Position numbers and translations under genes: made by a program. Below the pieces are notes generated by a model that saw nothing but the letters and a program-made list of their open reading frames with translations, did no database searches and was not told the DNA's origin. 64,000 nucleotides of DNA from Alloactinosynnema sp. L-07 (GTDB taxonomy: Bacteria > Actinomycetota > Actinomycetes > Mycobacteriales > Pseudonocardiaceae), in NCBI RefSeq assembly GCF_900070365.1, contig NZ_LN850107.1:124001-188000 (forward strand). The letters are read 5' to 3'. Below are positions 540-26,898 of this stretch, piece by piece. How positions within the stretch are numbered: position 1 is the first letter of the stretch; each line of letters starts with the position of its first letter.

Positions 540-1280
540 ATGGACCACGGCCTGCACGGAAAGCATGTCCTTGTCACCGGAGGCAGCCGCGGCATCGGCC
601 GAGCCACCGTGCACGCCTTCGCCAAGGCGGGTGCCAAGGTCGTCGCCGTCTACCACCAGCCCAGTGACGCTTCCCAGCAGCTCGCCTGCGAGCTCAAGGA
701 GCTCGGCGACGGCCACCTGCTCGTCCAGGCCGACGTCACCGACGCTGCCTCTACCGCGCAGCTTGCCGAGGCCGTGAACGTCCACTTCGGTGGCAAGCTC
801 GACGTCCTCGTCAACAACGTCGGCGTCGACGGACGCTCGGCCTTCGGTGAGCTGGCAGAGGAGGAGTGGCACCGCGTGATGGACCACAACGTCACCTCCG
901 CCTACCTCGTCACCAACAAGGTTCTCGACCAGCTCGTCGAGGGCGCCTCGATCGTCAACATCGGATCGTCGCTTGCTCTGCGCGGGCGGGCCTTCGGTGT
1001 CCACTACACCGCGAGCAAGGCCGCCCTCATCGGGTTGACGCGCGCGCTCTGCAAGGAGCTCGGTCCCAAGGGGATCCGGGTCAACCTGGTCTCGCCCGGC
1101 GTCACCGAGACCGAGCCCGGTGGCGGGCTGCCGCCGCACGTGCAGCAGATGATCGTCGGCATGACGGCGCTCGGCCGCATGTGCCAGCCCGAGGATGTCG
1201 CGGGCGCGGTCCTGTACCTGGCCGGTGCGACGTCCAAATACGTGACCGGTTCCACAATCAACGTCGACGGCGGCGTCTAG
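540..1280 (+). CDS. SDR-family ketoreductase (FabG-like)
   Basis: A 246-residue classical short-chain dehydrogenase/reductase. The NADPH-binding TGGSRGIG motif is at residues 13-20, the NN(V)G motif near 92, and the catalytic Ser near 143, Tyr156 and Lys160 (YTASK) are present. It starts at ATG 540 behind AGAAGGGG. It opens the type II PKS region but is closed by its own hairpin at 1291-1328, so it is probably transcribed separately from the minimal PKS operon. Family knowledge: such enzymes reduce polyketide keto groups or tailoring carbonyls. It resembles the second SDR at 6178, so one may be the C9-type ketoreductase and the other a tailoring reductase; which is which cannot be told. Confidence 0.85.
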   Translation: MDHGLHGKHVLVTGGSRGIGRATVHAFAKAGAKVVAVYHQPSDASQQLACELKELGDGHLLVQADVTDAASTAQLAEAVNVHFGGKLDVLVNNVGVDGRSAFGELAEEEWHRVMDHNVTSAYLVTNKVLDQLVEGASIVNIGSSLALRGRAFGVHYTASKAALIGLTRALCKELGPKGIRVNLVSPGVTETEPGGGLPPHVQQMIVGMTALGRMCQPEDVAGAVLYLAGATSKYVTGSTINVDGGV

Positions 1281-1290
1281 TTCCTTAAGT

Positions 1291-1328
1291 AGGGGGCACG
1301 CCCACAACTTTAGTAGGGCGTGCCCCCT
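1291..1328 (+). terminator. rho-independent type terminator after the first SDR
   Basis: A perfect 13-bp stem (AGGGGGCACGCCC at 1291-1303; GGGCGTGCCCCCT at 1316-1328) with a 12-nt loop, followed by ATCTTT. It begins 10 bases after the SDR stop codon. The next gene starts at 1529, so a promoter for the PKS operon should lie in 1330-1528; I see no convincing -35/-10 pair. Confidence 0.85.
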
Positions 1329-1528
1329 ATCTTTGCCCTTATTTGGTCGGGTGTGGTCAACCTTTCGGGCGTCCCGCGTATCTACTGGTCGGTCGACTGT
1401 TCTTTTCTTGACGGATTCGAGTTCTTGTCTTACCTGTCCAGCTTAGTTCGATAGCGTTTCGAGTAGACCTCCATCTACGGCTGACACTGTCATCTCGCTT
1501 CGCTTCCACGTCTCGCGTAGGAGTTGCC

Positions 1529-1864
1529 GTGCATCGCACACTGATCGTCGCCAAGTTGAAGACCTCCGATCCCCAGGAGATCGCGAACGTCTTCGCCGAG
1601 TCCGACGCCACGGACCTGCCGCACATGGTCGGTGTGTCCCGCCGGACCCTGTTCACCTTCCACGACCTGTACTTTCACCTGGTCGAGGCCGATGACGACA
1701 TCACCCCCGACCTGTACAAGGCGCGCAGCCACCCGTTGTACAGCAAGATCCACAACGACTTGTTGCCGCTTGTTTTCCCGTACGACCCGAATTGGAAAGA
1801 GCCCAAGGACGCCATGGCGAATCCGTTTTACGTTTGGGACGCCAAGGAAGGTCGGACCAAGTGA
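1529..1864 (+). CDS. TcmI-family aromatic polyketide cyclase
   Basis: A 111-residue protein of the TcmI/WhiE-ORFVII cyclase family (dimeric alpha+beta barrel): an N-terminal strand beginning MHRTLIVAKL, then a central SRRTLFTFHDLYFHLVE segment and the C-terminal ANPFYVWD, typical of this group. Members catalyse late ring closures of unreduced poly-beta-keto chains in pentangular polyphenol and spore-pigment pathways. GTG start at 1529, with TAGGAG 7 bases ahead. Its stop overlaps the cupin start by 4 nt (GTGA), so it is the first gene of the translationally coupled minimal PKS operon. Confidence 0.88.
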   Translation: MHRTLIVAKLKTSDPQEIANVFAESDATDLPHMVGVSRRTLFTFHDLYFHLVEADDDITPDLYKARSHPLYSKIHNDLLPLVFPYDPNWKEPKDAMANPFYVWDAKEGRTK

Positions 1865-2337
1865 CGGCCACCACTGACGCCGACGTCGCGGGCCGGGTCA
1901 ACAACGAGAAATTCACCGCCGCGCAGGTGCGTGTCAACCGGGCAGCTGTTGATTCGAACACCCGCCGTGGTGGCGATATCCGGGTGACTTTGAGCCCGAA
2001 GACCGTGCGCAGCTGCTCTGGTTTCGGCGGCATCCTCAAGCTGGCCCCGGGTGATTTCATCACCGAGCACTACCACCCCTATTCCGAGGAGTTCATCCAC
2101 GTCGTCGAGGGCGAGCTGGAGATGATCCTCAACGGTGAGCCGATCGCGCTGGGCGCGAACGACTCGCTGATGGTCCCGATCGGCGTTCGGCACCGTCTGG
2201 TCAACGTCGGCACCAGTGAGGCGCATGTGGTCTTCCACCTGTCGCCGCTGGCGCCGCGGCCGGAGCTGGGCCACGTCGACACCGAAGAAGCACAGCGGCC
2301 CGAGTTGGCCAACCCGGATGTGGGGGGACACCCGTGA
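1861..2337 (+). CDS. cupin-domain polyketide biosynthesis protein (WhiE-ORFII/CurC type)
   Basis: A 158-residue single cupin: the metal-site motif appears as [17 protein letters not shown] and the second cupin motif around [12 protein letters not shown]. Homologous small cupins sit beside KS-alpha in spore-pigment and pentangular polyphenol clusters, where they assist cyclisation or ring oxidation; the exact reaction varies. GTG start at 1861 overlaps the cyclase stop; its own stop overlaps the KS-alpha start (GTGA). The order cyclase-cupin-KS-CLF-ACP-ARO/CYC resembles whiE. Confidence 0.85.
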
Positions 2338-3587
2338 CGAGGCAAGTAGCGATCACCGGCGTCGGGGTCGTGGCACCCGGCGGCGTCGGCCGCGAGAACT
2401 TCTGGGGTCTGCTGACCGCCGGTCGTACCGCGACCAGGACGATCAGCCTGTTCGACCCGAAGAACTTCCGCTCGCGCATCGGCGCCGAGGTCGACTTCGA
2501 CGCCAAGGCCGCGGGCCTGACGGCGCAGGAGATCCGCCGGATGGACCGGGCGGGGCAGTTCGCCGTCGTCTGTGCCCGTGAGGCCATCGCCGACAGCGGC
2601 GTGGACCTGACCGGCGTGGACCCTGGCCGCATCGGCGTGAGCATCGGCAGCGCGGTCGGCTGCACCATGGGCCTGGAAGAGGAGTACGCGGTCCTCTCCG
2701 ACGGAGGCAAGCGCTGGCTGGTCGACCACACCTACGGTGTGCCGCACCTCTACGGCTACATGGTGCCCAGCACCCTGGCCGTCGAGGTCGCCGCCGAGGT
2801 CCGCGCGGAGGGCTCGGTCGGCCTGGTGTCGACCGGCTGCACCTCCGGGCTCGACGCGGTCGGCCACGGTGTGCAGCTGATCGAGGAGGGCTCGGCCGAC
2901 ATCGTGATCGCCGGGGCCACCGACGCGCCGATCTCGCCGATCACCTCGGCCTGCTTCGACGCGATCAAGGCCACCTCGCCCAACAACGGCGACCCCGAGC
3001 ACGCCTCGCGGCCCTTCGACAACACCCGTGACGGCTTCGTCCTGGGTGAGGGCTCGGCGGTCATGGTGCTGGAGGACCTGGAGTCGGCCAAGGCCCGCGG
3101 CGCGCACATCTACTGTGTCGTCGGCGGCTACGCCTCGCGCAGCAACGCCTTCCACATGACCGGCCTCAAGCCCGACGGCCGGGAGATGGCCGAGGCCATC
3201 CGGGTCGCGCTGGCGGGCGCCAAGCTCGACGCGTCCGATGTGGACTACATCAACGCGCACGGCTCGGGCACCAAGCAGAACGACCGGCACGAGACCGCGG
3301 CGTTCAAGGCGAGCCTCGGCCACCGTGCCTACGAGATCCCGGTCAGCTCCATCAAGTCGATGGTCGGGCACTCGCTCGGCGCGATCGGCTCGATCGAGGT
3401 CGCCGCGTGCGCGCTGGCGCTGGACCGGCAGGTCGTGCCGCCCACCGCCAACCTGCACACCCCCGACCCCGAGTGCGACCTGGACTACACGCCGTTGACG
3501 GCGCGGGACCACAAGATGGACGCGGTGCTCAGCGTGGGCAGCGGGTTCGGCGGGTTCCAGAGCGCGATGGTGCTCGCACGCCACTAA
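2334..3587 (+). CDS. type II PKS ketosynthase KS-alpha
   Basis: A 417-residue beta-ketoacyl synthase with the active-site Cys169 in [13 protein letters not shown], His309 in [13 protein letters not shown] and Lys341/His346 in [10 protein letters not shown]. Length and motifs are standard for the iterative aromatic type II ketosynthase that, with KS-beta and ACP, elongates malonyl units into a poly-beta-keto chain. GTG start overlaps the cupin stop. The [12 protein letters not shown] segment and the TGCTSGLDA signature fit aromatic PKS rather than fatty-acid FabF. Confidence 0.96.
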
Positions 3588-3652
3588 GGCAGCGAGCGCG
3601 GGGGCCGCGGGCTCTCACCGAAGACACCAACACGTGGAAGGGCATTTGAGGC

Positions 3653-4888
3653 ATGAGTCCCACAACCGCAGTGGTGACCGGGCTCGGGATCGTCGCGCCG
3701 ACCGGCCTGGGCATCGAAGAGCACTGGCAGGCGGTGCTCGCGGGCAAGAGCGGGATCGGCCGGATCACCCGGTTCGACCCGTCCGAGTACCCGACCAAGC
3801 TGGCAGGCGAGGTCGCCGGGTTCACCGCCAAGGGGCGGGTACCCGGCCGACTGATCCCGCAGACCGACCACTGGACCCACATGGCGCTGTTCGCCGCGGA
3901 GTCCTCCCTGGCTGACGCGGGCGTCGACCCGACGCAGCTGCCCGAGTTCGAGATGGCCGTGGTCACCTCGTCCTCCTCCGGCGGCACCGACTTCGGCCAG
4001 CACGAGATGGAGCGGCTCTACCAGAACGGCCCGTCCTGGGTCGGGGCCTACCAGTCCATCGCGTGGTTCTACGCGGCCACCACCGGCCAGATCTCCATCC
4101 GGCACGGCATGCGCGGCCCGTGTGGCGTGCTCTGCGCCGAGCAGGCGGGCGGCCTCGACGCGATCGGCCAGGCGCGGCGGCTGCTGCGCACCCAGTCGCA
4201 GCTCGTGGTCACCGGCGGCACCGACAGCTCGCTGTGCCCCTACGGCCTCGTCGCGCAGCTGCCCACCGGTCTGCTGTCCACTTCGGACTCCAGTGACCGG
4301 GCGTACCTGCCGTTCGACACCGAGGCGGCAGGCTACATCCCCGGCGAGGGCGGCGCGATCCTGGTGACCGAGCGGGAGACCACGGCCACCGCGCGCGGCC
4401 TGGGCAAGGGCTACGGCACGATCCTTGGCTACGCGGCCGGGTTCGACCAGTCCGAGCGCACCGACCGCAAGCCGGTGCTGGCCGGGGTCATCCGGCGCGC
4501 GCTGGACGACGCCCAGCTCAACACCTCCGACATCGACGTCGTCTTCGCCGACGCCACCGCCGACCCGCGGCTGGACCGGATCGAGGCCGACGCGATCACC
4601 GAGGTGTTCGGCGCGCGGGGTGTCCCCGTGACCGCGCCCAAGACGCTGACCGGGCGGCTGTTCGGCGGCGGTGCCCCGCTCGACGTGGCCACCGCGTTGC
4701 TCGCGTTGCGCGACGGCGTCATCCCGTTCACCGCGGGCCCGAACCGGCTCGCGAACGGCATCGACATCGATCTGGTGCTCAACACCCCGCGCGAAGCGTC
4801 GCTGCGGCACGCCCTGGTGGTGGCCCGCGGCTACGGCGGCTTCGCCGCGGCGATGGTCGTCGGCAAGGGCGACCGCAGCCCCGCATGA
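3653..4888 (+). CDS. type II PKS chain length factor KS-beta
   Basis: A 411-residue KS-like protein in which the catalytic Cys is replaced by Gln164 (VLCAEQAGGLDA), the hallmark of chain length factors that decarboxylate malonyl-ACP and set chain length. It forms the heterodimer with KS-alpha. ATG at 3653; a 65-nt gap separates it from KS-alpha, unusual because these two are often coupled. The chain length made cannot be read reliably by eye; the neighbouring TcmI-type cyclase, cupin and ABM genes suggest a long (pentangular) chain. Confidence 0.95.
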   Translation: MSPTTAVVTGLGIVAPTGLGIEEHWQAVLAGKSGIGRITRFDPSEYPTKLAGEVAGFTAKGRVPGRLIPQTDHWTHMALFAAESSLADAGVDPTQLPEFEMAVVTSSSSGGTDFGQHEMERLYQNGPSWVGAYQSIAWFYAATTGQISIRHGMRGPCGVLCAEQAGGLDAIGQARRLLRTQSQLVVTGGTDSSLCPYGLVAQLPTGLLSTSDSSDRAYLPFDTEAAGYIPGEGGAILVTERETTATARGLGKGYGTILGYAAGFDQSERTDRKPVLAGVIRRALDDAQLNTSDIDVVFADATADPRLDRIEADAITEVFGARGVPVTAPKTLTGRLFGGGAPLDVATALLALRDGVIPFTAGPNRLANGIDIDLVLNTPREASLRHALVVARGYGGFAAAMVVGKGDRSPA

Positions 4889-4920
4889 GAACTCAAGGAA
4901 CAACTACCGAAGGAGTACCA

Positions 4921-5181
4921 GTGAACAAGTTCGACCTGGACGACCTGCGCGCGATCATGCGCGAGAGCGCTGGCGTGGACGAGGACGTCGACCTCGACGG
5001 CGACATCGCCGACATCGAGTTCACCGAGCTGGGCTACGACTCGCTCGCGGTGCTGGAGCTGGCCAGCCAGGTCCAGCGCAAGTACGGCGTGCCGATCCCG
5101 GACGAGGCCGTGCACGAGATGCCCACCCCGCGTGCGGCGGTGGAGTTCATCAACAAGCAGTTCTCGATCGCGGGAGTCTGA
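4921..5181 (+). CDS. acyl carrier protein of the minimal PKS
   Basis: An 86-residue acidic four-helix carrier protein with the phosphopantetheine Ser41 in LGYDSLAVLEL. GTG start at 4921 with AAGGAG 5 bases upstream. It carries the growing polyketide for KS-alpha/KS-beta. A single base separates its stop from the ATG of the next gene (5183), so the two are coupled. A second ACP gene lies at 16094. Confidence 0.95.
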   Translation: MNKFDLDDLRAIMRESAGVDEDVDLDGDIADIEFTELGYDSLAVLELASQVQRKYGVPIPDEAVHEMPTPRAAVEFINKQFSIAGV

Positions 5182-5182
5182 C

Positions 5183-5641
5183 ATGTCCGGCCACACCGAC
5201 AACTCGATCATCATCGACGCGCCGCTGGACTACGTCTGGGAGCGCACCAACGACATCGAGGCGTGGACCGAGCTGTTCAGCGAGTATTCCATCGCCGAGA
5301 TCACCGAGCAGCGCGGCAACACCTTCCGGTTCAAGCTCGCCCTGCACCCCGACGAGACCGGCAAGGTCTGGTCCTGGGTGTCGGAGCGGACCATCGACCC
5401 GGAGACCCACACCGTGCGCTCGGCCCGCGTCGAGACCGGCGTCTTCAAGTACATGGCGCTGTTCTGGGAGTACACCCAGACCGACGAGGGCGTGCGGATG
5501 CGCTGGGTGCAGGACTTCGAGATGAAGCCGTGGGCGCCGCTGGACGACGCCGGGATGACCGAGCGTTTGAACACCAACACCGCTGTGCAGATGCAGCTGA
5601 TCAAGGACAAGGTCGAGGCGGAAGCCAAGGCTCGCGTCTGA
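5183..5641 (+). CDS. single-domain SRPBCC aromatase/cyclase (TcmN N-domain/WhiE-ORFVI type)
   Basis: A 152-residue START/Bet-v1-like protein: SIIIDAPLDYVWERTNDIEAW at the N terminus, then a run of strands and the long C-terminal helix (residues about 120-150). Single-domain members fold the nascent unreduced chain (C9-C14 or C7-C12 first ring). With two SDRs in the cluster, the substrate could also be partly reduced. It directly follows the ACP, as in whiE. Confidence 0.9.
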   Translation: MSGHTDNSIIIDAPLDYVWERTNDIEAWTELFSEYSIAEITEQRGNTFRFKLALHPDETGKVWSWVSERTIDPETHTVRSARVETGVFKYMALFWEYTQTDEGVRMRWVQDFEMKPWAPLDDAGMTERLNTNTAVQMQLIKDKVEAEAKARV

Positions 5642-5676
5642 TTCTCCAAGGTCCAGAACGAGTAGGGAGGTAGCTG

Positions 5677-6147
5677 GTGCTCGCGGTCCTCATTCCGTTG
5701 GTACTGCTGATGAGCGGATTGTCGGCCGGGGTACTGCTCGGCACGCAGCTGGGTGGATTCCCGCTGCTGGCCGCTCTGCCGACGGACCGATATGTGCACG
5801 CGCACGCTTTCTTCGCCACCCGGTATGACCCGTTCATGCCGATCTGTTTCGTCGGGACGGTCGTGGGCGACATCGCCCTGGCCGTGCTCGCCCCCGAGGC
5901 GGCGGCTTCCGGTTTCTACATCGTGGGCGCGGTACTCGCGCTGGCCACGGTGACGATCTCGCTGGTCAAGAACGTCCCGACGAACAAGTGGGTCCAGACC
6001 CTCGACCCCGAGAACCTTCCCGAAGGCCCCGACTACGAGGGCAAGCGGGCGGACTGGGGCCGGTGGAACCGCAATCGCAGCTACCTGGCGGTGGCCGCGC
6101 TCGTGGCCAACTGCGCCGCGTTGGCCGCGTTGGCCGTGTTGATCTGA
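5677..6147 (+). CDS. DUF1772/anthrone oxygenase-like membrane protein
   Basis: A 156-residue integral membrane protein with about four hydrophobic helices (near residues 3-22, 58-75, 80-97 and 139-156) and a conserved-looking loop (HAHAFFATRYDPFMP). It fits the DUF1772 family, which includes fungal anthrone oxygenases acting on polyketides. Here it may oxidise an anthrone-like intermediate to a quinone at the membrane; that role is inference. GTG start at 5677 behind AGGGAGG. Confidence 0.7.
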   Translation: MLAVLIPLVLLMSGLSAGVLLGTQLGGFPLLAALPTDRYVHAHAFFATRYDPFMPICFVGTVVGDIALAVLAPEAAASGFYIVGAVLALATVTISLVKNVPTNKWVQTLDPENLPEGPDYEGKRADWGRWNRNRSYLAVAALVANCAALAALAVLI

Positions 6148-6177
6148 CAGTCGCGAACAATGTTGGAAGGAAACGCA

Positions 6178-6930
6178 ATGGATCTGGGCCTCAAGGGAAA
6201 GAAGGCGCTGGTCACCGGCGGCGTCCGCGGTGTGGGCCGCGGCATCGTGCTGGCGCTGGCCAAGGCCGGTGTCGACGTCGTCACCTGCTACCGGCAGGAC
6301 AGCGAGCTGGTCGAGTCGCTTCGCCGTGAGCTCAAGGAGATCGGCGGCCAGCACCACGTCATCCAGGCCGACCTGGCCGAGCCCGAGCAGATCACCGAGT
6401 TCATGACCGAGGTCAAGAACCAGTTCGGCACCCTCGACCTGATCGTGAACAACGCGGGCACCATCTCGCACGTGCCCTACGGCCAGCTCGAGCTCGACGA
6501 GTGGCTGCGCATCCTCAACACCAACGTCACCGCCGTGCACCTGGTCATCCAGCAGGCGCTGCCGTTCCTGGCCGAGGACGCCTCCATCGTCAACATCGGC
6601 TCGAAGTCCTCCGAGGTGGGTATCCCGCTGCGGTCGCACTACACCACCACCAAGGCGGCGCTGCGCGGTCTGACCCGCTCGCTGGCCAAGGAGTTCGGCA
6701 CCAAGGGTCTGCGCTTCAACGTCCTCGCGCTCGGCGTCATCGAGACCGAGGCGCTCGACGCCATGCCCGAGGAGCAGCAGGCCATGATGCGCAAGCGCTA
6801 CAGCGAGAAGACCGCGCTGGGCCGCCTGGGCACCCCGGACGAGGTCGCAGGCGCGGTCCTGTGGCTCGCGTCCGACCTGAGCAAGTACGTCACCGGCGCC
6901 ACCATCCACGTCGACGGAGGTATCTCCTAA
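6178..6930 (+). CDS. second SDR-family oxidoreductase
   Basis: A 250-residue classical [11 protein letters not shown] at 13-20, NNAG at 91-94, catalytic Ser near 142, Tyr155 and Lys159 (YTTTK). ATG at 6178 with GGAAGG 6 bases ahead. The ABM gene starts at the very next base after its stop, so they are coupled. It is a paralogue of the SDR at 540. Probable polyketide ketoreductase or tailoring reductase. Confidence 0.87.
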
Positions 6931-7299
6931 ATGTCCGCCGCAACGCAGACCTTCACCGCGTACCGGGTCATGCTCCGCATGGAGATCAACCCGGGCATGG
7001 AAGCCGACTTCGAGCGCGTGTGGACCGAGGTGGGCGACTCGGTCACCTCGCACCCGGCGAACCTGGGCCAGTGGCTCTCGCGCAGCCAGGACGAGGAAGG
7101 CGTGTACTACATCGTCTCCGACTGGGTGGACGAGCCGCGGTTCCGCGAGTTCGAGCTGTCCGACCGGCACCTGGACCACCGCCAGAAGCTGCACCCCTAC
7201 CGGTCCAAGGGTTCCATGGTGACCATGAACGTCGTGGCGCACCTCGCGTCCTCGGCCACCGTGAAGACCCACACGGAGTGGGAAGCCGCTCAGGCATGA
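6931..7299 (+). CDS. ABM-domain small oxygenase/cyclase (first copy)
   Basis: A 122-residue antibiotic-biosynthesis-monooxygenase fold (dimeric alpha-beta barrel): strand AYRVMLRMEINPGMEADFE, a central LSRSQDEEGVYYIVSDW segment and a helix with DRHLDHRQKLHP. Cofactor-free members oxidise anthrone-type carbons to quinones (ActVA-ORF6, PdmH types). It begins immediately after the SDR stop and ends with a 4-nt overlap into the next ABM gene; the pair may form a heterodimer. Confidence 0.78.
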   Translation: MSAATQTFTAYRVMLRMEINPGMEADFERVWTEVGDSVTSHPANLGQWLSRSQDEEGVYYIVSDWVDEPRFREFELSDRHLDHRQKLHPYRSKGSMVTMNVVAHLASSATVKTHTEWEAAQA

Positions 7300-7604
7300 G
7301 TGGCAAGGAAGTTCGGATCTTCATTTACCACGCCACCGACGATGTCGAGGGTGTCGAGCAGGCCTACCACGAGGTGAGCAAGGAACTCGTTGGTGTGCCA
7401 GGGATGCTGGGCAACGACCTCATGCGGTCGGTCCACGACCCGCTGGGGTTCGTGGTGATGAGCCGGTGGGTCGACATGGACGCGTTCAACGAATGGGAGC
7501 AGGGTCCGGCCCACAAGGGGCAGACCTCGGCGTTGCGCAAATACCGCGACACGCGTCCCGGAGCTGTTCCGTTCGCGCTCTATGAGGTCACCGCTAGCTA
7601 CTGA
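7296..7604 (+). CDS. ABM-domain small oxygenase/cyclase (second copy)
   Basis: A 102-residue protein of the same ABM fold (VRIFIYHATDDVEGVEQAYH, MSRWVDMDAFNEWEQG). ATG at 7296 overlaps the first ABM stop (ATGA). The pair ends the first operon, directly before the hairpin at 7606-7666. Tandem ABM genes are known from pentangular polyphenol clusters, where they cooperate in quinone formation; the division of labour here is unknown. Confidence 0.78.
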   Translation: MSGKEVRIFIYHATDDVEGVEQAYHEVSKELVGVPGMLGNDLMRSVHDPLGFVVMSRWVDMDAFNEWEQGPAHKGQTSALRKYRDTRPGAVPFALYEVTASY

Positions 7605-7605
7605 G

Positions 7606-7666
7606 AAGACAGTTTCGGGAGGGTGTTGGACCGGCTGGGCCGGGAGACACCCTCCCGCTGTCTTTT
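7606..7666 (+). terminator. two-tier hairpin terminator closing the PKS operon
   Basis: The outer stem AAGACAG (7606-7612) pairs with CTGTCTT (7658-7664); the inner stem GGGAGGGTGT (7617-7626) pairs with ACACCCTCCC (7647-7656). It ends in TCTTTT. It directly follows the second ABM stop codon at 7604. Confidence 0.88.
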
Positions 7667-7690
7667 CAGGGGAGGGATAGGGGTTGGGCG

Positions 7691-7861
7691 ATGCGTGATT
7701 TGACCGGTGATGAAGAGGAAAGGCTGCGCCAGTGGTGGCGGCAGGTGTTCGCGGCCTGCGGATACGGCCTGGTGGTGATGGGCTCGTTCGACCACGGCGT
7801 CCCGTTGTCGAGTGTGGACGAACAGTCTGAAGAGCGCATTCCAGCGCCTACTGAAAAGTAA
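7691..7861 (+). CDS. small hypothetical protein, 56 residues
   Basis: An ATG at 7691 opens 56 codons of acidic, Trp-containing sequence beginning MRDLTGDEEERLRQWWRQVF and ending PAPTEK, then TAA. A GGGG tract lies 7 bases upstream. It sits alone between the PKS terminator and the acetyl-CoA carboxylase genes. Codon third positions are GC-rich at the start but less so at the end. I do not recognise a family; the compact helix-like amphipathic N terminus suggests a small regulatory or accessory peptide. Confidence 0.45.
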   Translation: MRDLTGDEEERLRQWWRQVFAACGYGLVVMGSFDHGVPLSSVDEQSEERIPAPTEK

Positions 7862-8000
7862 CTGATCAAGGCTGAGAGTTCTCTCAATTCCGCTTCGATC
7901 GCGCCTCTAGGTGACAAAGGCAACATCGACACAGGAACTTTCGTGCCAAGGGGCGATGTGTCCGCAATGGACATTCGGCGGGAACGTGAAGGGGATCTCC

Positions 8001-11616: not shown

Positions 11617-11623
11617 CCCGCGG

Positions 11624-13252: not shown

Positions 13253-13310
13253 GCGTTCATTCTGCCTTTGCGGCGGGCTGGTCGACTCTGCGCCGGGTTC
13301 GGAGTGATGT

Positions 13311-13521: not shown

Positions 13522-13539
13522 CTGCTCAGGCGGCGGGTG

Positions 13540-19048: not shown

Positions 19049-19051
19049 GAG

Positions 19052-19528
19052 ATGGTCTGGATCCGCTCCAAGAGCAAGCGAGAGATCACCATCCGCACCG
19101 ACCGGGAGACGCTGCGTCGCACTGTCGCGGCCGTGCTGGATACCGGTCGCCTGATGCCCGGCGTCGACGAGATGACCGACCTAGGCGAGGGCCGGTACCA
19201 CCTGCGCCTCGCGACGGTGTCCAACGGCGCGGTCGTGTTCACCCCCGACTACGAGGCCAGCTACGACACCACCGACGCGGACCTGGTCACCTGGGAACCG
19301 CACGGCGAGCACAACTTCCGCACCTGGGGACACTTCCGCATCTCCGACGGCGCGGCCGCCGGCGAGCAGATCCTGGAGATCGAGACCCGGGCCGAGGCCT
19401 CCGTCGACGTCGCGGCGGTCGTGGTCATCCTGATCGAGCCGTTCGCGCAGAAGGAGAGCGACGAGGCCACCGAGGGCTTCCTGACGGCCATCCGCGACTC
19501 CGTCGAAAAAGTGAGCGTGGCCAGATGA
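19052..19528 (+). CDS. SRPBCC/CoxG-like protein
   Basis: A 158-residue protein with a START-like pattern: a helix after SKREITIRTDRETLRRTVAAV, strands RYHLRLATVSNGAVVFTPDY, and a long C-terminal helix SDEATEGFLTAIRDSVEKV. It is similar in build to polyketide cyclases but not close to the one at 5183. It overlaps the type III PKS start by 4 nt, so it may cyclise or hold the type III PKS product; this is inference from context. Confidence 0.6.
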   Translation: MVWIRSKSKREITIRTDRETLRRTVAAVLDTGRLMPGVDEMTDLGEGRYHLRLATVSNGAVVFTPDYEASYDTTDADLVTWEPHGEHNFRTWGHFRISDGAAAGEQILEIETRAEASVDVAAVVVILIEPFAQKESDEATEGFLTAIRDSVEKVSVAR

Positions 19529-20601
19529 TCTCGGCGACCACCGCCGTCGCGCCCGCGCGCATCCTGGGACTGCGCACCGCGCAGGCGGGCCCGGCCGTCT
19601 CGCAGGACGAGATGTTCGAGACCTTCTACAAGGACCTCTACGCCGAGGTCCCCGACGCCGAGAAGCTGTTCAAGAGCACCCAGGTCAAGCAGCGCAGGCA
19701 GGCGTGGTCGCCCGCCGAGCGCTACGCCGACGGCTGGCCGGGGATGCGGACCCGGATCGAGGCGTGGGAGGAAAGCGTCCTGGCCATGGGCCGGGAGACC
19801 GTCGGCGGCGTCATCGACGGCGTGGACACCGACAAGATCGGCAGCTACACCTTCGTCAGCTGCACCGGCTACGCGGGCCCGACCCCGGAGATGCTGCTGG
19901 CCAAGGAGTTCGGCCTGCCGCAGAACCTGCGCCGCACCTTCGTCGGCCACATGGGCTGCTACGCGGCGTTCAACGGCATCAAGGTCGCGCTGGACTCGCT
20001 GGCAGGCAGGCCCGACGAGCTGGCCCTGGTCACCTGCGCGGAGGTGTGCTCGGTGCACCTGCGCCCGGAGGCCACCAAGGAGCAGGTCGTGGTCACCGGC
20101 CTGTTCGGCGACGCCGCAGCCACCCTGCTGCTGTCCTCTGTGGACGGCGATGTGGACGACGTCGACGGCCCGGTGATCCTCGGCACGCACACCGAGACCC
20201 ACCCCGAGACCTCCGCGGCGATGACGTGGAAGGTCATGGACGACGCCTTCCGCATGACGCTGTCGCCGTACGTCCCGCTCTACCTGTCCGAGACGATCGT
20301 GCCGTTCGTCGGCCGACTGCTCGACCAGCACGGCCTCAAGCCCGGCGACGTCAAGCACTGGGGCATCCACCCCGGCGGCCCGAAGATCATCGACTACGTC
20401 GGCGAGCGGCTGGACCTGCCGGTCGCCGCGCTGCAGCCGTCGCTGCACATCCTCGGCTCGTGGGGCAACTGCTCCTCGCCGACGGTGCTGCTCATCCTCG
20501 ACCACATCCTGCGCGAAGTCCGCCCGGCGGCGGGGGAGTACGGCGTGTTCATGGCCTTCGGTCCCGGCCTGACCATGGAATCCGCGCTGATCCGCTTCTG
20601 A
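19525..20601 (+). CDS. type III polyketide synthase (chalcone synthase superfamily)
   Basis: A 358-residue type III PKS with the complete triad: Cys145 in GHMGCYAAF, His282 in WGIHPGGPKI, Asn315 in GNCSSPTV; the closing AFGPGLTMESALIRF matches the GFGPGL loop. Such homodimers extend a CoA- or ACP-bound starter with malonyl units without a carrier protein and cyclise to resorcinols, pyrones or phloroglucinols. Finding it in the middle of a type II PKS cluster is unusual. The ATG at 19525 overlaps the SRPBCC gene. Confidence 0.92.
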   Translation: MISATTAVAPARILGLRTAQAGPAVSQDEMFETFYKDLYAEVPDAEKLFKSTQVKQRRQAWSPAERYADGWPGMRTRIEAWEESVLAMGRETVGGVIDGVDTDKIGSYTFVSCTGYAGPTPEMLLAKEFGLPQNLRRTFVGHMGCYAAFNGIKVALDSLAGRPDELALVTCAEVCSVHLRPEATKEQVVVTGLFGDAAATLLLSSVDGDVDDVDGPVILGTHTETHPETSAAMTWKVMDDAFRMTLSPYVPLYLSETIVPFVGRLLDQHGLKPGDVKHWGIHPGGPKIIDYVGERLDLPVAALQPSLHILGSWGNCSSPTVLLILDHILREVRPAAGEYGVFMAFGPGLTMESALIRF

Positions 20602-20632
20602 TCCTTTCCCTTTGACCTGAACGGAGTCGGCC

Positions 20633-22105
20633 ATGGCCACCCCATCCACCACCGTCGAGAGCCTGGTCGCCGACCTACTCGGCCAGCAGTGGGTCATCGA
20701 GCTGTTCACCGACCTCGGCGAGCGCCAGCGCCAGTCGCTGGAGGTCGCGGGCCAGGTCCGCGAGCGCGCCGCGTCCAACCACGTGTTCTGGCCCTTCCAC
20801 GCCCCGCAGTTTCCGCTGGTCGTCGCCGAGGCGTCGGGCAGCCGGATCACCGACATCGACGGCAACACCTATCTCGACTCGCACCTGGGCTTCGGCTCGC
20901 AGGCGCTCTTCGGCCACAACCCGCCCGCGGTGGTCGACCACATCAAGGAGTCGCTGGGCCGCTCCACCGGCAACGGCTACCTCAACCTGACCGAGCTGCA
21001 GCTGGTCGACCTGCTGGAGGACTTCCTCCCGCACGCGCAGAAGTTCGCCTTCCTCAACTCCGGCACCGACGCCACCAACGCCTCGATCCGGCTGGTCCGC
21101 GCGCACACCGGCAAGCGGATGATCGCCAAGTTCGAGGGCGCGCTGCACGGCGTGCACGACCTGGCCGCGCACAACACCGCGTTCTGGTACCACGGCCACC
21201 CGGTGCAGCCCTTCCCCGAGGTGACCGACAACGGCATCGCGCCGCTGCCCGCGCTCACCGGCGTCACCCCGGCGTCGCCGGACGAGCTGCTGATCCTGCC
21301 CAACGACACCGCCAAGGCGCTCGAACTCATCGAGCGGCACCGCGACCAGCTCGCGGGCGTGCTCGGCGAGGCCGTCTCGTCGTCGTTCCCGTACGTCGAG
21401 CACACCGTGCCGATGATCCGCGAGGTCGCCCAGCGCTGCCAGGCGCTGCGCATCCCGTTCATCCTCGACGAGGTGCTGACCGGCTTCCGCTTCGGCCCGC
21501 AGGGCGCCGCGGGGCACTTCGACATCCCGGCCGACCTGTACTGCTACGGCAAGGTCGTCACCGGCCTGGGCCTGCCGCTGTCCATCGTGGCGGGCCGCGC
21601 CGACATCATCGACCACATGCAGACCTCGGGTCTGCCGCTGACCGACCTGGGCCGCAAGACCTGCGTGCAGACCACGCACGCGGGCAACCACCTGTCCCTG
21701 GCCGCGTCCTTCGCCGCGCTGAGCGCCCTGCGCGACGCGGGCGACGCCTACTACGACCGCACCCGCGCCAAGGTCGGCCGGGTCCAGTCGAGGCTGGCCG
21801 AGTTCCGCGCCGAGACCGGCATCCCGCTGCGGCTGCTCGGTTTCGGTGACTTCATCGGCTCGTTCGGCTTCGTCGCCGAGGAGTCCTACGGCGACTACCG
21901 CGAGTTCGCCAGCGCGGTGAACCCGATCGGCCTGTTCCTGCTCACCCTGATGCTGCGCCGCCGCGGCGTCTACACGCTGAGCCTGCCGATGTTCTTCACC
22001 GGCGACGCGCACAGCGAGTCCGATGTGGACGAACTGCTGACCGCGGTGCTCGACTCGGCACTGGAGCTCGACAAGCACGGCTTCCCCTTCGTGCTGCCTT
22101 CGTAA
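20633..22105 (+). CDS. PLP class-III aminotransferase/aminomutase (GSAM-like), copy 1
   Basis: A 490-residue fold-type I PLP enzyme related to glutamate-1-semialdehyde aminomutase: NSGTDATNASIRLVRAHTG (142-160), PLP ring Asp279 in FILDEVLTGFR and Schiff-base Lys307 in YCYGKVVTGLGLP. It is longer than HemL (about 430), with an extra N-terminal helical region (residues 1-50). It would transaminate or migrate an amino group on an acyl or aldehyde substrate. Tandem paralogue of the next gene, which it matches closely along its whole length. Confidence 0.87.
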   Translation: MATPSTTVESLVADLLGQQWVIELFTDLGERQRQSLEVAGQVRERAASNHVFWPFHAPQFPLVVAEASGSRITDIDGNTYLDSHLGFGSQALFGHNPPAVVDHIKESLGRSTGNGYLNLTELQLVDLLEDFLPHAQKFAFLNSGTDATNASIRLVRAHTGKRMIAKFEGALHGVHDLAAHNTAFWYHGHPVQPFPEVTDNGIAPLPALTGVTPASPDELLILPNDTAKALELIERHRDQLAGVLGEAVSSSFPYVEHTVPMIREVAQRCQALRIPFILDEVLTGFRFGPQGAAGHFDIPADLYCYGKVVTGLGLPLSIVAGRADIIDHMQTSGLPLTDLGRKTCVQTTHAGNHLSLAASFAALSALRDAGDAYYDRTRAKVGRVQSRLAEFRAETGIPLRLLGFGDFIGSFGFVAEESYGDYREFASAVNPIGLFLLTLMLRRRGVYTLSLPMFFTGDAHSESDVDELLTAVLDSALELDKHGFPFVLPS

Positions 22106-22144
22106 ACCACCACCTCGTCGGGATCAAAGGACAGGCGAACAACC

Positions 22145-23623
22145 ATGACCATCGCGCAGACTCGGCCGGACACCCGTACGCCGCAGGAGATCGTCACCGA
22201 GCTGCTCTCGCAGCAGTGGGTGATCGAGCTGTTCACCGAACTGGGGCAGCGCCAGGCGAAGTCGCTGGCGCTGGCCGGGCAGGTGCGCGAGCACGTGGTG
22301 ACCAACCACGTGTTCCTGCCCTTCCACGCGCCGATGTTCCCGCTGGCCGTCGCCGAGGCGCAGGGCAGCACGCTCACCGACGTCGACGGCAACACCTATA
22401 TCGACTCCCACCTCGGCTTCGGCGGGCAGTCGCTGTGGGGCCACAACCCCCAGCCGGTGGTCGACTTCGTCCGAGAGCAGGCTCTGCGCGGACCCGGCAA
22501 CGGCTACCTCAACCCGCTGGAGCTCCAACTGGGCGAGCTTCTCAAGGACCTGATCCCGCACTGCGAGAAGTTCGCCCTGCTCAACTCCGGCACCGACGCC
22601 ACCGGCACGGCGATCCGGCTGGCCCGCGCCAAGACCGGCCGCAAGCTGGTCGCCAAGTTCGAGGGCTGCTGGCACGGCGTGCACGACGTCGCCGCCCGCA
22701 ACACCTCGTTCTTCGCCCACGGCCACCCGAAGGTCAACCCGTTCCCGGAGATCGGCGCCGACGGCATCGAGCCGCTCAACGCCTTCACCGGCACCGCCGA
22801 TGTGAACATCCTGATCCTGCCGCACGACGCCGCCGCGGCGGGCGCGCTGATCGAGAAGCACAAGGACGAGCTGGCCTGCGTCATCGCCGACGCGGCCTGC
22901 CAGTCGTGGCCCTACGTCGAGCAGACCATCCCCGAGGTCCGCGACGTGGCACTGCGCTGCCAGGGGCTCGGGGTGCCCTTCATCCTCGACGAGGTACTGA
23001 CCGGGTTCCGCTTCGGCACCGCGGGCGCGGCGGGCAAGTACGACATCCCCGCCGACCTGTACTGCTACGGCAAGGTCGTCTCCGGCCTCGGTCTGCCGCT
23101 GGCCGCGATCGGCGGCAAGGCCGAGTTCCTGGAGATCGCCACCACGTCGGGCACCTCGCTCGGCGACATCGGCACCAAGACCTTCGTGGTCAACACCCAC
23201 TCGGCCAACCACCTGTCGATGGCCGCGTCCTACGCCTCGCTCAACCTGTTGCGCGAGGCCGGACCCGCGTTCTACGAGCGCACCGACGCCAAGGTCGACC
23301 GGATCAAGGCCCGACTCGCCGCTTTCCGCGCGGAGTCCGGCATCCCGATCCGGCTGCTGGGCTTCGGCGCCTTCGCGGGCACCTTCGGGTTCGTCCAGCA
23401 GGACTCCTACGACACCTACCGCGAGTTCGGCGCCGCGGTGAACCCGCTCGGCCCGGCCGTGCTCACCCTGATGCTGCGCAGGCGCGGCGTCTACACGCTC
23501 AGCATGCCGATGTTCTACACCGGCGACGCGCACTCCGAGTCCGATGTGGACACCATTGTCGACGCCGTGATCGACGCGGCGGGCGAGATGGGCCGCAACG
23601 GATTCCCCTTCGTGATGCCCTGA
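22145..23623 (+). CDS. PLP class-III aminotransferase/aminomutase (GSAM-like), copy 2
   Basis: A 492-residue tandem paralogue of the gene at 20633 with the same landmarks (NSGTDATGTAIRLARAKTG, ILDEVLTGFRFG, YCYGKVVSGLGLP with the PLP Lys). Both copies keep catalytic residues, so they may act on different substrates or form a heterodimer. ATG at 22145, 39 nt after copy 1. Differences are concentrated around HNTAFWYHGH versus RNTSFFAHGH, near the expected substrate pocket. Confidence 0.87.
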   Translation: MTIAQTRPDTRTPQEIVTELLSQQWVIELFTELGQRQAKSLALAGQVREHVVTNHVFLPFHAPMFPLAVAEAQGSTLTDVDGNTYIDSHLGFGGQSLWGHNPQPVVDFVREQALRGPGNGYLNPLELQLGELLKDLIPHCEKFALLNSGTDATGTAIRLARAKTGRKLVAKFEGCWHGVHDVAARNTSFFAHGHPKVNPFPEIGADGIEPLNAFTGTADVNILILPHDAAAAGALIEKHKDELACVIADAACQSWPYVEQTIPEVRDVALRCQGLGVPFILDEVLTGFRFGTAGAAGKYDIPADLYCYGKVVSGLGLPLAAIGGKAEFLEIATTSGTSLGDIGTKTFVVNTHSANHLSMAASYASLNLLREAGPAFYERTDAKVDRIKARLAAFRAESGIPIRLLGFGAFAGTFGFVQQDSYDTYREFGAAVNPLGPAVLTLMLRRRGVYTLSMPMFYTGDAHSESDVDTIVDAVIDAAGEMGRNGFPFVMP

Positions 23624-23649
23624 ACCCGCTTACCCGAACCGGAGTCACA

Positions 23650-25410
23650 ATGAGCATCGACAGCGGCTTGCGGGCCGACCTCGAAGTCCATCCTGACCGG
23701 CGCGGCTTCGTCCCCGACCCGAACGCACCGGTGGCCAAGCTCAGCACGGCGGGCACTGTGGCGGGCACCCTCATCGAGCGGGCCCGCCGCGAGCCCGACG
23801 CCGTGGCCTACTACCTGCCCGACGAGCCCGAGTCCGACCAGCGGATCACCATGGCCGACCTGCACGACCGGGCCCACGCGGCCGGGTCGGCGCTGGCCGC
23901 GGCCGGGCTCACCCGGGGCGGGCGGGTCTGCCTGTGCCTGGACACCTCCGCCGACCTGCTCTCCGGCCTGTTCGGCGCCGCGCTGCTCGGCGCGGTGCCG
24001 TCGGTGATCGAGCCGCCGCTCACCGCGGGCCGCAAGCAGCTGTGGCTCGACCGGGTTCGTCACCTCGTGGCCGTGGCCGAGCCCCAGGTCCTGGTGTGCG
24101 CGGAGAACCTGCGCGAGGACGCCGCCGAGGCGTTGGCGGGCATGAAGGTCACCGTGATCAGCCCGCCGTTCGGCGACGGGCTGGTGGCCGACCCGGTGCT
24201 GACCGCCGACCCGGAGGACCCGGCGTTCATCCAGTTCACCTCGGGCACCACGTCGGCGGCCAAGGGCATCGTGCTCAGCCACCGCGCGGTGTTCGCCGCC
24301 GCGTCGGCGATCGGCCTCGCGGGCCCGTTCTGCGAGGGCGACCTGCTGGCCAGCTGGCTGCCGCTGCACCACGACATGGGCATGGTCGGCGCCACTATGA
24401 CTCCGTTCCTGCTGTCGCTGCCGTCGGTGCTGGTCCGGCCGCTGGCCTTCGGCACCCGGCCGGACCGGTGGGTGCGGCTGATCCACCAGTACCGGGCCAC
24501 GATCTCGCCCGCGCCGAACTTCGCCTACCGGCTGGTCGCGTCCCTGGCCCGCAAGATCGACCTGGCAGGCCTTGACCTGAGCTGCTGGCGGAAAGCGTTC
24601 AACGGCGCCGAGGTGGTCGACGCGGTGACGCTGCGGGAGTTCCAGGAGACGATGGGCCGCTTCGGCTTCCCCGTCGAGACGATGCGGCCCTGCTACGGCA
24701 TGGCCGAACTCGGCTTGGCCGCGACGTTCTCGCCGGTCGGGTCGCCCCCGCGGGTCGAGGTGCTGTCCCGCACGGCGATGGCCGAGACCGGCAGGGCCGA
24801 GGCACCCCGCTCGACCGAGGACGCCCACCCGTATGTCTCGTCGGGCATCCCGGTGCCGGGGACCAAGGTCAGGGTCAGCGACACCGAGGACATCGACCTG
24901 CCCGACGGCCACGTCGGCCGGGTGCGGGTGGCCAGCGAGTCGATGATGACCGGCTATCTCAACGGTCCCGCCGACCCGGTGCTGGACCTGCGCGACGGCT
25001 GGCTCGACACCGGCGACCTGGGCTTCCTGCGCGACGGCGAGCTGTTCGTCACCGGGCGCGGCAAGGATCTGATCATCCTGGCGGGCCGCAACTACCAGCC
25101 GCAGAACTTCGAGCGCGCCGCCGAGACCGTCGACGGGGTCCGCGCCGGCGCCGCGGCCGCGGTGGGCGTCCCCGATGCGGCCAGCGGCACCGAGAAGATG
25201 GTGCTGGTGGTGGAGAGCAAGTACCACCGCGACCCGGCCACCGCCTTGCACACCGGCAAGCTGATCGAGCGCGCGGTCGCCGAGCACACCGGCGTTCGGC
25301 CCGCGCGCGTGATCGTCGTCAGCCCGCGCACGCTGCCCAAGACCTCCAGCGGCAAGCTGCAGCGTTCGCAGGTGGCCGCGGCGGTGGCGGCCGGCGTTCT
25401 GGGCGGGTGA
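23650..25410 (+). CDS. FAAL-like acyl-AMP ligase
   Basis: A 586-residue ANL-superfamily adenylating enzyme: phosphate loop FTSGTTSAAKGI (about 196-207), WLPLHHDMGMVG, PCYGMAE(L)GL, GWLDTGDLG and the C-terminal Lys in KTSSGKLQR. The LPLHHDMGM motif and long middle section fit fatty-acyl-AMP ligases, which pass acyl-AMP to a carrier protein rather than CoA; ACP2 (16094) is the obvious acceptor. ATG at 23650 with GGAG ahead; its stop overlaps the next gene by GTGA. Confidence 0.85.
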   Translation: MSIDSGLRADLEVHPDRRGFVPDPNAPVAKLSTAGTVAGTLIERARREPDAVAYYLPDEPESDQRITMADLHDRAHAAGSALAAAGLTRGGRVCLCLDTSADLLSGLFGAALLGAVPSVIEPPLTAGRKQLWLDRVRHLVAVAEPQVLVCAENLREDAAEALAGMKVTVISPPFGDGLVADPVLTADPEDPAFIQFTSGTTSAAKGIVLSHRAVFAAASAIGLAGPFCEGDLLASWLPLHHDMGMVGATMTPFLLSLPSVLVRPLAFGTRPDRWVRLIHQYRATISPAPNFAYRLVASLARKIDLAGLDLSCWRKAFNGAEVVDAVTLREFQETMGRFGFPVETMRPCYGMAELGLAATFSPVGSPPRVEVLSRTAMAETGRAEAPRSTEDAHPYVSSGIPVPGTKVRVSDTEDIDLPDGHVGRVRVASESMMTGYLNGPADPVLDLRDGWLDTGDLGFLRDGELFVTGRGKDLIILAGRNYQPQNFERAAETVDGVRAGAAAAVGVPDAASGTEKMVLVVESKYHRDPATALHTGKLIERAVAEHTGVRPARVIVVSPRTLPKTSSGKLQRSQVAAAVAAGVLGG

Positions 25411-25988
25411 CGGGCGTGGAACTGGCACTCGTCGGCGGGTCGCTGCGCCCGGGCTCGGTGAGCGAGCGGGTGCTGCGCGCCTGCGCCGACCTCGCCGCCG
25501 AGCACGGCGCCCGCTCGACGGTGCTCACCGCCGAGGATCTCGACCTCCCGCTCTACCGGCCGGGTTCCCCGCATCGGGCCGCGCGGGAGCTGTTGTCGGC
25601 GCTGCGGCGGGCCGACGGCGTGATCATCGCGACGCCGACCTACCACGGCGGCGTCTCCGGGTTGCTGAAGAACGCGCTGGACTATGTCGAGGACCTGGCC
25701 GGGGACACCCCGGCCTACCTCGACGGGCGCGTGGTCGGCACGGTCGCGGTCGGCTGGAGCGAGCACGGCGCGGCGACCGCGGTGGCCGAGCTGCGCACGG
25801 CGGTGCTGTGCCTGCGCGGCTGGGTGACGCCGATGGCCGTCACGGTCAATTCCGTTCCTTTGTCCACTTTGGATGGTTTAGCCGCCGACGCCGCGCTGCG
25901 CTCGGACGCCCGGCTGATGCGCAGGCTCGAAATCCTGGTCGGCCAAGTCGTCGACTTCGCGGGCACTCGCCTGGTCACCGCTGTCTAA
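25407..25988 (+). CDS. NAD(P)H-dependent FMN reductase
   Basis: A 193-residue flavodoxin-like reductase: phosphate-binding GGSLRPGSVSERVL (9-22), TPTYHGGVSGLLKNALDY (about 73-90) and the WSEHGAATA loop. It probably supplies reduced flavin or reduces a quinone intermediate. GTG 25407 overlaps the ligase; GTG 25416 is an in-frame alternative. Confidence 0.82.
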   Translation: MTGVELALVGGSLRPGSVSERVLRACADLAAEHGARSTVLTAEDLDLPLYRPGSPHRAARELLSALRRADGVIIATPTYHGGVSGLLKNALDYVEDLAGDTPAYLDGRVVGTVAVGWSEHGAATAVAELRTAVLCLRGWVTPMAVTVNSVPLSTLDGLAADAALRSDARLMRRLEILVGQVVDFAGTRLVTAV

Positions 25989-26007
25989 CGAAACTTAGGA
26001 GAGAGAC

Positions 26008-26898
26008 GTGAGCACCACCACCGACACCGGTCTGAGCCAGGAAGGCTCGGTCGAGGACCTGCACCGGGCCGTGCGCGACCACTACGACAAGCTGGTCGAC
26101 CTGTACGAGGACCTCTGGGGCGAGCACATCCACCACGGCTACTGGGACCTCGATGCCCAGGACGTGCCGCGCGACATCGCCCAGCAGCGCACCACCCAGG
26201 AACTGATCAAGTTCGGCGGCATCGCGCCGGGCTCGAAGGTCCTCGACAGCGGCTGCGGGATCGGCGCCTCGGCGATCATGCTCGCGGCGGACCTCGGCTG
26301 CACCGTCGACGGCATCACCCTGAGCCACGAGCAGGTCAAGCGCGCCACCGACAAGGCCGCGCAGGCCGGGGTCGGCGCCAAGACCCACTTCCAGGTGATG
26401 GACGCGCTGCACACCACCTATGAGGACAACACCTTCGACGTCATCTGGTCGATGGAGTCCTGCGAGCTGATGCCCGACAAGCGCGCCTACCTCGCCGAGA
26501 ACCTGCGCATCCTCAAGCCCGGCGGCCGTCTCGTCGTGGCCACCTGGACCAGCCGCGACGACCAGCTCAACCCGAAGGAGGTCAAGCTGCTGCGCAGGCT
26601 CTACCGCGACTTCGCCATCTCGCACGTGCTGCCGCTGGACCACTACGCCAAGCTGTGCGCCGACCTCGGCTACGTCGACGTCGCCCAGGCCGACTGGACC
26701 GACAACGTCAAGGCCACCTGGAAGCTCTCGGCAGACATCGTCAAGCCGCTGGTGCGCGACCCGTCGTACGTGTGGAAGCTGGTCAAGGCCAAGGGCGCCG
26801 ACATCTTCCGCTTCTTCAACTCGGTCCCGCTGATGAAGCAGGCCTACGACAAGGACGTCATGCACTACGGCGTCTACACCGCTGTCAAGCCCAGCTGA
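26008..26898 (+). CDS. SAM-dependent methyltransferase (tocopherol C-MT-like)
   Basis: A 296-residue class I methyltransferase with HYDKLVDLYEDLWGEHIHHGYWD before motif I VLDSGCGIGASAIMLA (about 75-90), then GITLSHEQV and LKPGGRLVVATWTS. This N-terminal HHGYW arrangement is typical of gamma-tocopherol/sterol C-methyltransferases and of RebM-like natural-product enzymes. AGGAGAGAG precedes the GTG start. Last gene of the cluster; the hairpin at 26906 follows by 7 bases. Confidence 0.85.
   Translation: MSTTTDTGLSQEGSVEDLHRAVRDHYDKLVDLYEDLWGEHIHHGYWDLDAQDVPRDIAQQRTTQELIKFGGIAPGSKVLDSGCGIGASAIMLAADLGCTVDGITLSHEQVKRATDKAAQAGVGAKTHFQVMDALHTTYEDNTFDVIWSMESCELMPDKRAYLAENLRILKPGGRLVVATWTSRDDQLNPKEVKLLRRLYRDFAISHVLPLDHYAKLCADLGYVDVAQADWTDNVKATWKLSADIVKPLVRDPSYVWKLVKAKGADIFRFFNSVPLMKQAYDKDVMHYGVYTAVKPS

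Follow-up and report, generated by a model that had tools for sequence, protein, structure and literature searches.

The stretch analysed here, referred to as the window, comprises 64,000 nucleotides (positions 124001-188000) of the single 7.405 Mb contig NZ_LN850107.1 of Alloactinosynnema sp. L-07, a strain that we place in the genus Actinokineospora. All coordinates given below are positions within the window. It carries a type II polyketide synthase (PKS) block at 540-11616, called arm A, and a type III PKS cassette at 13672-26898, called arm B, which may belong to one gene cluster with a joined product. Pfam scans confirmed that the genes of both arms named in a first-pass annotation of this DNA are present. 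That gene list stands, but it had missed a second ABM-like gene (7296-7604), the cluster runs approximately 11 kb further past the left end of the window, and the MMPL gene was found to belong to arm B.

Arm A, encoded on the forward strand, contained a full minimal type II PKS together with cyclases, reductases, small oxygenases, and an AccAD/BCCP/BC carboxylase set, as identified by Pfam. It opened with a ketoreductase-like short-chain dehydrogenase/reductase (SDR; 540-1280; PF13561, 211 bits), a PF04673 polyketide cyclase (1529-1864; 135.6 bits), and a cupin (1864-2337, start uncertain between 1792 and 1984; PF07883, 66 bits). The minimal PKS consisted of the ketosynthase KSalpha (2334-3587; Pfam), with its Cys in STGCTSG and matching its counterparts in four linked relatives at 76-82%, the chain-length factor KSbeta/CLF (3653-4888; Pfam), with a Gln in the AEQAGG motif and actinorhodin KS2 (1tqy_B) as the best PDB chain, and the acyl carrier protein ACP1 (4885-5181; PF00550), with its Ser in GYDSL. 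These were followed by an SRPBCC aromatase/cyclase-like protein (5183-5641; PF10604), an anthrone oxygenase-like protein (5677-6147; PF08592), a second SDR (6160-6930; PF13561), and the ABM monooxygenase 1 (6931-7299; PF03992). The overlapping ABM-like gene 2 (7296-7604) was the reciprocal best hit of genes in Microbispora (36%) and Microtetraspora (32%), the former of which is a PF03992 member. The arm closed with an acyl-CoA carboxylase AccA/D fusion (7911-9719, start uncertain; PF03255, 356 bits), a biotin carboxyl carrier (9716-10255; PF00364), and a biotin carboxylase (10252-11616; PF02786, 242 bits). A KSalpha with Cys, a CLF with Gln, an ACP, and aromatase/cyclase proteins were thus all found, as expected of an aromatic type II PKS, and the complete aromatic minimal PKS of the first-pass annotation was confirmed.

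On the 5' side of the window, Pfam identified an AsnB-type amidotransferase, encoded approximately 5 kb away, and a hydroxyisobutyrate-dehydrogenase-like protein. Inspection by eye or weak similarity added a SARP regulator whose gene extends into the window, together with an anthrone oxygenase, a pair of ABM proteins, and a POT-type transporter, and at the far upstream end (L137:2653-5480) there were genes reading by eye as methionine-salvage enzymes. For the upstream monooxygenase, transporter, and amidotransferase, reciprocal best hits were found in the clusters of Microbispora and Microtetraspora. The nearest PDB entries to the upstream FAD monooxygenase were GrhO5 (469 bits) and RubL (467 bits), with RdmE at 331 bits; the amidotransferase was nearest to the 'hydroxyamidotransferase' 7ylz (439 bits), asparagine synthetase B reaching 67 bits. 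The earlier view of arm A as a pentangular-type system is supported by its family and relatives, its gene set, and the GrhO5-like monooxygenase rather than by a product, the product, its pentangular folding, and a chain length of C24-C26 being predictions.

Arm B began with a predicted MMPL-family exporter on the reverse strand (13672-15879; PF03176, 272 bits), assigned to this arm because an orthologue (63-77%) is present at the arm B locus in all eight other genomes with the two-aminotransferase form of the cassette. All further genes were on the forward strand: ACP2 (16094-16387; PF00550, 28 bits; Ser in GFDSL); B02 (16384-17553; Pfam and PDB sequence matches), a flavoenzyme of the acyl-CoA dehydrogenase (ACAD) fold that may be a dehydrogenase or a monooxygenase; B03 (17559-18251), a reduced ACAD-fold protein; a UbiG-like O-methyltransferase (18251-19048; TIGR01983, 196.5 bits against a cut-off of 102.95); a 158-residue SRPBCC (helix-grip) cyclase-like protein (19052-19528); the type III PKS (19525-20601); two class III aminotransferases (20633-22105 and 22145-23623; Aminotran_3), the second a tandem paralogue (63%) of the first; a fatty acyl-AMP ligase (FAAL)-like acyl-AMP ligase (23650-25410; PF00501, 197 bits); an NADPH-dependent FMN reductase (25407-25988; PF03358, 103 bits); and a SAM methyltransferase (26008-26898; PF08241), whose nearest NCBIfam model, geranyl diphosphate C-methyltransferase, gave 87 bits against a cut-off of 400.

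The type III PKS matched PF00195 and PF02797, and its Cys145, His282, and Asn315 were invariant in 24/24 aligned sequences, which bears out the intact triad described earlier. An identity as DpgA (3,5-dihydroxyphenylacetyl-CoA synthase) was rejected, the NF042429 score being 162.6 bits against a cut-off of 425. The second ACP and the acyl-AMP ligase were likewise recovered as annotated (PF00550 and PF00501); the ligase scored 378 bits with PRK09192 (fatty acyl-AMP ligase, cut-off 600) and 395 bits with PRK07768 (CoA ligase, cut-off 572). The SRPBCC protein had no Pfam match, and its AlphaFold2 model (pLDDT 83.3) retrieved 3p9v, of unknown function, as the best fold match, then ZhuI, with WhiE-ORFVI lower.

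The two aminotransferases had been described as similar to glutamate-1-semialdehyde aminomutase (GSAM). This description was not upheld: they scored 197.5 and 203.2 bits with TIGR00713, below its cut-off of 527.3, and the aminotransferase (AMT) domain of MycA was nearer than any GSAM in the PDB, so that a GSAM function was rejected. A profile of nine such arm B aminotransferases scored 206 bits with the AMT domain of MycA (mycosubtilin synthase), the closest chains being 6kfm/6kfu, vs 164 bits with the best GSAM. K307, presumed from its motif to be the lysine that binds pyridoxal phosphate (PLP), was invariant in all nine aligned sequences. The AMT domain aminates a beta-ketothioester on an ACP (PMC3870968; this and the other papers cited were available in part, and statements on them refer to those parts).

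A paired acyl-CoA dehydrogenase had also been annotated. Two ACAD-fold genes are indeed present, but the second is reduced. Searched against the PDB, B02 matched two 'acyl-CoA dehydrogenase type 2 domain protein' entries at 186 bits, true ACADs at up to 102 bits, the FAD-dependent oxidoreductase 3m9v at 94 bits, nitrososynthase at 78 bits, and carrier-protein-bound prolyl dehydrogenases at 48-51 bits, scores that lean slightly to dehydrogenases. We take the catalytic Glu of ACADs of the medium-chain type to lie shortly after the YRD stretch; at this supposed site B02 reads VPPATD, and the three listed alignments to true ACADs end at YRD, just before it. B03 aligned to full-length ACADs at its two ends only, approximately 150 middle residues being gone, and this gap rules out two intact acyl-CoA dehydrogenases: of the three ACAD domains, the middle one is absent. 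The AlphaFold2 model of B03 was all-helical (pLDDT 89.9), and the best 50 of 478 matches in the fold search were ACAD-fold proteins (best E 2.5e-3, none below 0.001); a sequence search of the PDB gave no match up to E 1. Each of the nine two-aminotransferase loci encodes a short B03 at the corresponding position. Both ends were kept in L-07 and the four Micromonospora loci, while in Microbispora, Microtetraspora, G957, and G960 the protein was reduced to little beyond the C-terminal part. In A. spheciospongiae and three Streptomyces, whose cassettes stand alone, two full-length ACADs and one aminotransferase were present in 4/4 cases. B03 may be a structural partner of B02.

Relatives were sought with the type III PKS as the query, at thresholds of E 1e-100 in a class-wide sample and E 1e-90 in the family of Microbispora and in Micromonosporaceae. 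Close relatives were found in 2 of 394 genomes of the class sample (L-07 itself and A. spheciospongiae, G045), in 2 of 297 genomes of the family of Microbispora, both previously in the set, and in 7 of 354 Micromonosporaceae, of which G947, only 50% identical, was not counted as arm B. Among 249 Pseudonocardiaceae, only L-07, G045, and G176 exceeded 41% identity. The two-aminotransferase form of arm B was present in nine genomes, five of them with an adjoining arm A: L-07, Microbispora hainanensis and Microtetraspora fusca, both with the two arms within approximately 43 kb, G957, which is Couchioplanes azureus or a very near relative of it (100% identity in two proteins), and G960 (97-99% to that species). 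Three gene orders were seen, namely arm A-carboxylase-arm B in L-07, arm A-arm B-carboxylase in G957 and G960, where arm B separates ABM2 from the carboxylase genes belonging to arm A, and a split arm A with the carboxylase adjoining arm B in Microbispora and Microtetraspora. In the M. hainanensis linked cluster (L132-L133), cytochrome bd subunits, two PLP enzymes, and two-component regulators were noted by eye among the pentangular genes.

The Micromonospora genomes with arm B only include M. inyonensis (G1137) and M. cathayae (G1101), named by protein identity, and two others placed by closeness. Beside arm B in one of them, G1159 (L153:10450-18188), lie genes for a member of the DIT1_PvcA isonitrile synthase family, a P450, an AsnB-type protein, and CopC/CopD proteins; size-matched genes occupy the same place in G1121 and G1137, not in G1101, G1159 being the one scanned. 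The PvcA, P450, and AsnB-type genes are probably neighbours by descent. Arm A alone was commoner: besides the linked genomes, a CLF of at least 69% without a close arm B type III PKS was found in 10 Pseudonocardiaceae and 6 Micromonosporaceae. Stretches of 16.3 kb (G1182, the whole contig) to 30 kb were inspected for seven of these 16 candidates, and no arm B gene was recognised in them except for a 26% acyl-AMP-ligase-like match in G1225; in G1138, KSalpha and CLF stood apart within one 30 kb stretch. The other nine are known only as genomes without a close arm B type III PKS. An AsnB-type gene occurred in 5/5 linked clusters vs 3/7 of the arm-A-only stretches.

The history of the pairing was examined with two trees. 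The arm A tree was built from KSalpha and CLF with 26 rows, seven of them outgroup, using only matches with a locus; L189, a near copy of L188, and L191, L192, L193, L196, L200, and L201, each a short locus without a close KSalpha, were omitted. A single clade of the five linked arm A's was rejected (approximately unbiased test, p 1.4e-13), two changes being needed. The placement of L-07 and Couchioplanes relative to L187 was weakly supported (90/54), and three pairings are therefore possible. In the arm B tree, built from six proteins in 13 rows without the S. hiroshimensis acyl-AMP ligase, the nine two-aminotransferase loci formed one side of a 100/100 branch; within it a single clade of the linked rows was rejected (p 1.7e-43), since the Micromonospora rows are nested next to L-07. 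Since the paired arm A's are not one clade and the two-aminotransferase arm B's are, the trees indicate that the pairing was formed or kept with different arm A partners. Linkage to a pentangular cluster probably existed already in the arm B ancestor, with the partner later exchanged or re-acquired and Micromonospora having lost or left it; alternatively, there was one old pairing and then many losses of arm B.

Between the arms of L-07, the interval 12313-13252 encodes a RidA/L-PSP protein (PF01042; 12893-13252, reverse strand) and one protein without a Pfam match, neither of which had a counterpart in the compared stretches of the linked relatives. To the right of arm B, an 891-residue reading frame with strong coding bias (27062-29737, reverse strand) had no Pfam match at E 0.001, and a PknG-like kinase (PF16918) and a VWA-domain gene at 32497-36173 are ordinary actinobacterial genes.

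Because the pairing recurs, we favour one functional pathway, in which a single gene cluster with two cooperating arms yields a joined product, and give this reading a probability of about 0.5. It builds on the observed genes, families, conservation, and recurrent pairing; the reactions, their order, and the joining step are proposed as follows. In keeping with established family roles, the carboxylase of arm A would supply the malonyl-CoA from which this arm makes a pentangular aromatic polyketide. Arm B, whose core is, as annotated earlier, a type III PKS with an ACP and enzymes for amine formation, would act as a dissociated mycosubtilin-type module of acyl ligase, ACP, ketosynthase, and AMT, with the type III PKS replacing the type I ketosynthase. 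The acyl-AMP ligase would load an acid onto ACP2, the type III PKS would extend it with malonyl-CoA, the SRPBCC protein (19052-19528) would guide cyclisation, and the two AMT-like enzymes would convert keto groups to amines, while methylation of the ring by the UbiG-like enzyme and its oxidation by the flavoenzyme would resemble the steps of agq/loseolamycin-type alkylresorcinol loci. The upstream AsnB-type amidotransferase would then most likely couple the resulting amine-bearing phenolic unit to the pentangular acid, giving an amide or N-substituted lactam, and the MMPL protein would export the joined product. A bolder version, which we consider unlikely, would make arm B an amine-building module of discrete proteins centred on a type III PKS. 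This architecture for aminated phenols would be new and would include a catalytically stripped ACAD partner; the amine of the module would replace ammonia as the nucleophile for a XanA-type amidotransferase to give N-substituted pentangular lactams or amides, and the module would have been plugged repeatedly into pentangular clusters.

Several observations weigh against a joined product. The MMPL gene goes with arm B, not with arm A, and the arm B loci of Microbispora and Microtetraspora are without the FMN reductase gene. In the four Micromonospora genomes arm B is complete, the 40-51 kb examined contain no type II PKS, and the nearest KSalphas are distant (66-68% identical), so that arm B may by itself give a finished product. 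Arm A was without arm B in 7/7 sampled loci, a joining role for AsnB is not specific to the pairing because AsnB-like genes also occur in arm-A-only clusters, and no obvious linker gene unique to the linked clusters was found. This separate occurrence, of arm B with its MMPL gene and of arm A, would also suit a supercluster in which a pentangular antibiotic from arm A and an MMPL-exported amino-alkylphenol lipid from arm B stay unjoined and are co-inherited for joint action or for a shared malonyl-CoA supply and regulation. The arms of L-07 are in fact separate blocks, with a 2 kb stretch and the opposite-strand MMPL gene between them, and the available part of PMC13200232 leaves this option open as well. 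We treat it as a serious but tentative alternative: the arm A partners of the pairing are not one clade, and in two genomes arm B is embedded among the arm A genes. Overall, a joined product appears somewhat more likely than two co-inherited ones. The first-pass annotation had named independent occurrence of the two halves as grounds for abandoning its proposal. Both halves do occur alone, yet the pairing recurs in four other genomes of at least three genera with partners that are not one clade, and in our view this recurrence outweighs the separate occurrences.

The rare and patchy distribution of close type III PKS relatives would fit a mobile arm B that landed beside arm A with no functional link, but with the pairing present in five genomes that represent at least four genera and, judging from the accessible part of PMC13200232, probably in a sixth, mere chance is very improbable. 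The first-pass annotation had also offered arm B as a source of the starter unit, the ACP2-bound acyl chain being passed to KSalpha to prime the type II PKS. A separate ACP and an acyl-AMP ligase are compatible with such priming; however, no KSIII or AT gene turned up in the Pfam scans of window genes (for the upstream region, these scans covered some of the genes), members of this arm A family occur in loci that have no arm B, and Micromonospora has a full arm B standing by itself. The proposal thus found little support, and we regard it as very improbable.

If the two arms do make a joined product, it would represent a new hybrid antibiotic class, and arm B a portable amine module for aromatic polyketides. 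The pairing recurs in several genera and each arm occurs by itself too, which serves as a natural control. The question can thus be tested in named strains, namely Microbispora hainanensis, Microtetraspora fusca, and Couchioplanes azureus with both arms, and Micromonospora inyonensis and M. cathayae with arm B only. We know of no bacterial molecule that a type II and a type III PKS build jointly. Searches of the open-licence PMC literature yielded no characterised product for this gene set, in agreement with the first-pass annotation, or for a pentangular cluster combining type II and type III PKSs.

Among known pentangular systems, the rubromycin/griseorhodin spiroketal pathway is marked by grhO5, grhO1, and grhO6 homologues, and XanO4 is likewise related to GrhO5 (42%; PMC7933358); the upstream FAD monooxygenase of L-07 has GrhO5/RubL as its best matches. 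In xantholipin and albofungin, lactam formation is ascribed to the AsnB-type enzymes xanA/abf2 (PMC9469721), and L-07 has an amidotransferase of this type. Unlike the L-07 cluster, neither group is credited with an arm B in the available parts of these accounts (PMC7933358, PMC9469721). A xantholipin-type cluster of Streptomyces sp. CA-250714 includes a type III PKS along with aminotransferases, and the 2026 paper that reports it is undecided between a hybrid and a second cluster (PMC13200232). As in L-07, a pentangular type II PKS cluster is accompanied there by a type III PKS, aminotransferases, methyltransferases, and oxidoreductases. In the accessible part of that paper the cluster is named as one variant and its product is not given, and the comparison made here is by description and by the type III PKS sequence. 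The CA-250714 type III PKS P0037 (71%), which we infer to be the PKS described, joined L-07, Microbispora, and Couchioplanes in a 26-row clade (100/99) in which two aminotransferases are known for only some rows, and the stand-alone A. spheciospongiae enzyme fell outside it. An SRPBCC-like protein, P0157, is also attributed to CA-250714.

Arm B itself resembles the mycosubtilin and puwainaphycin modules in combining an acyl-AMP ligase, an ACP, a ketosynthase function, and an AMT aminotransferase (PMC3870968, PMC4219810); unlike in those systems, all of its proteins are discrete, the type III PKS replaces the type I module, and no NRPS was found. The losA locus runs in the order UbiA, methyltransferase, acyl-CoA dehydrogenase, and type III PKS, and its PKS makes alkylresorcinols (PMC7587189). 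A methyltransferase, an ACAD-like protein, and a type III PKS adjoin one another in the agq/loseolamycin loci as in arm B (PMC7587189, PMC9967187), and UbiG-like (33-39%) and ACAD-like (30-33%) genes precede a 39-40% type III PKS in 6 of the 12 more distant loci listed (L048-L059). The losA locus differs in its UbiA prenyltransferase, and an ACP, acyl-AMP ligase, aminotransferase, and MMPL gene are not in its published list, as far as available (PMC7587189). Arm B looks like an elaborated relative of losA-type loci, having gained carrier-protein loading and amination.

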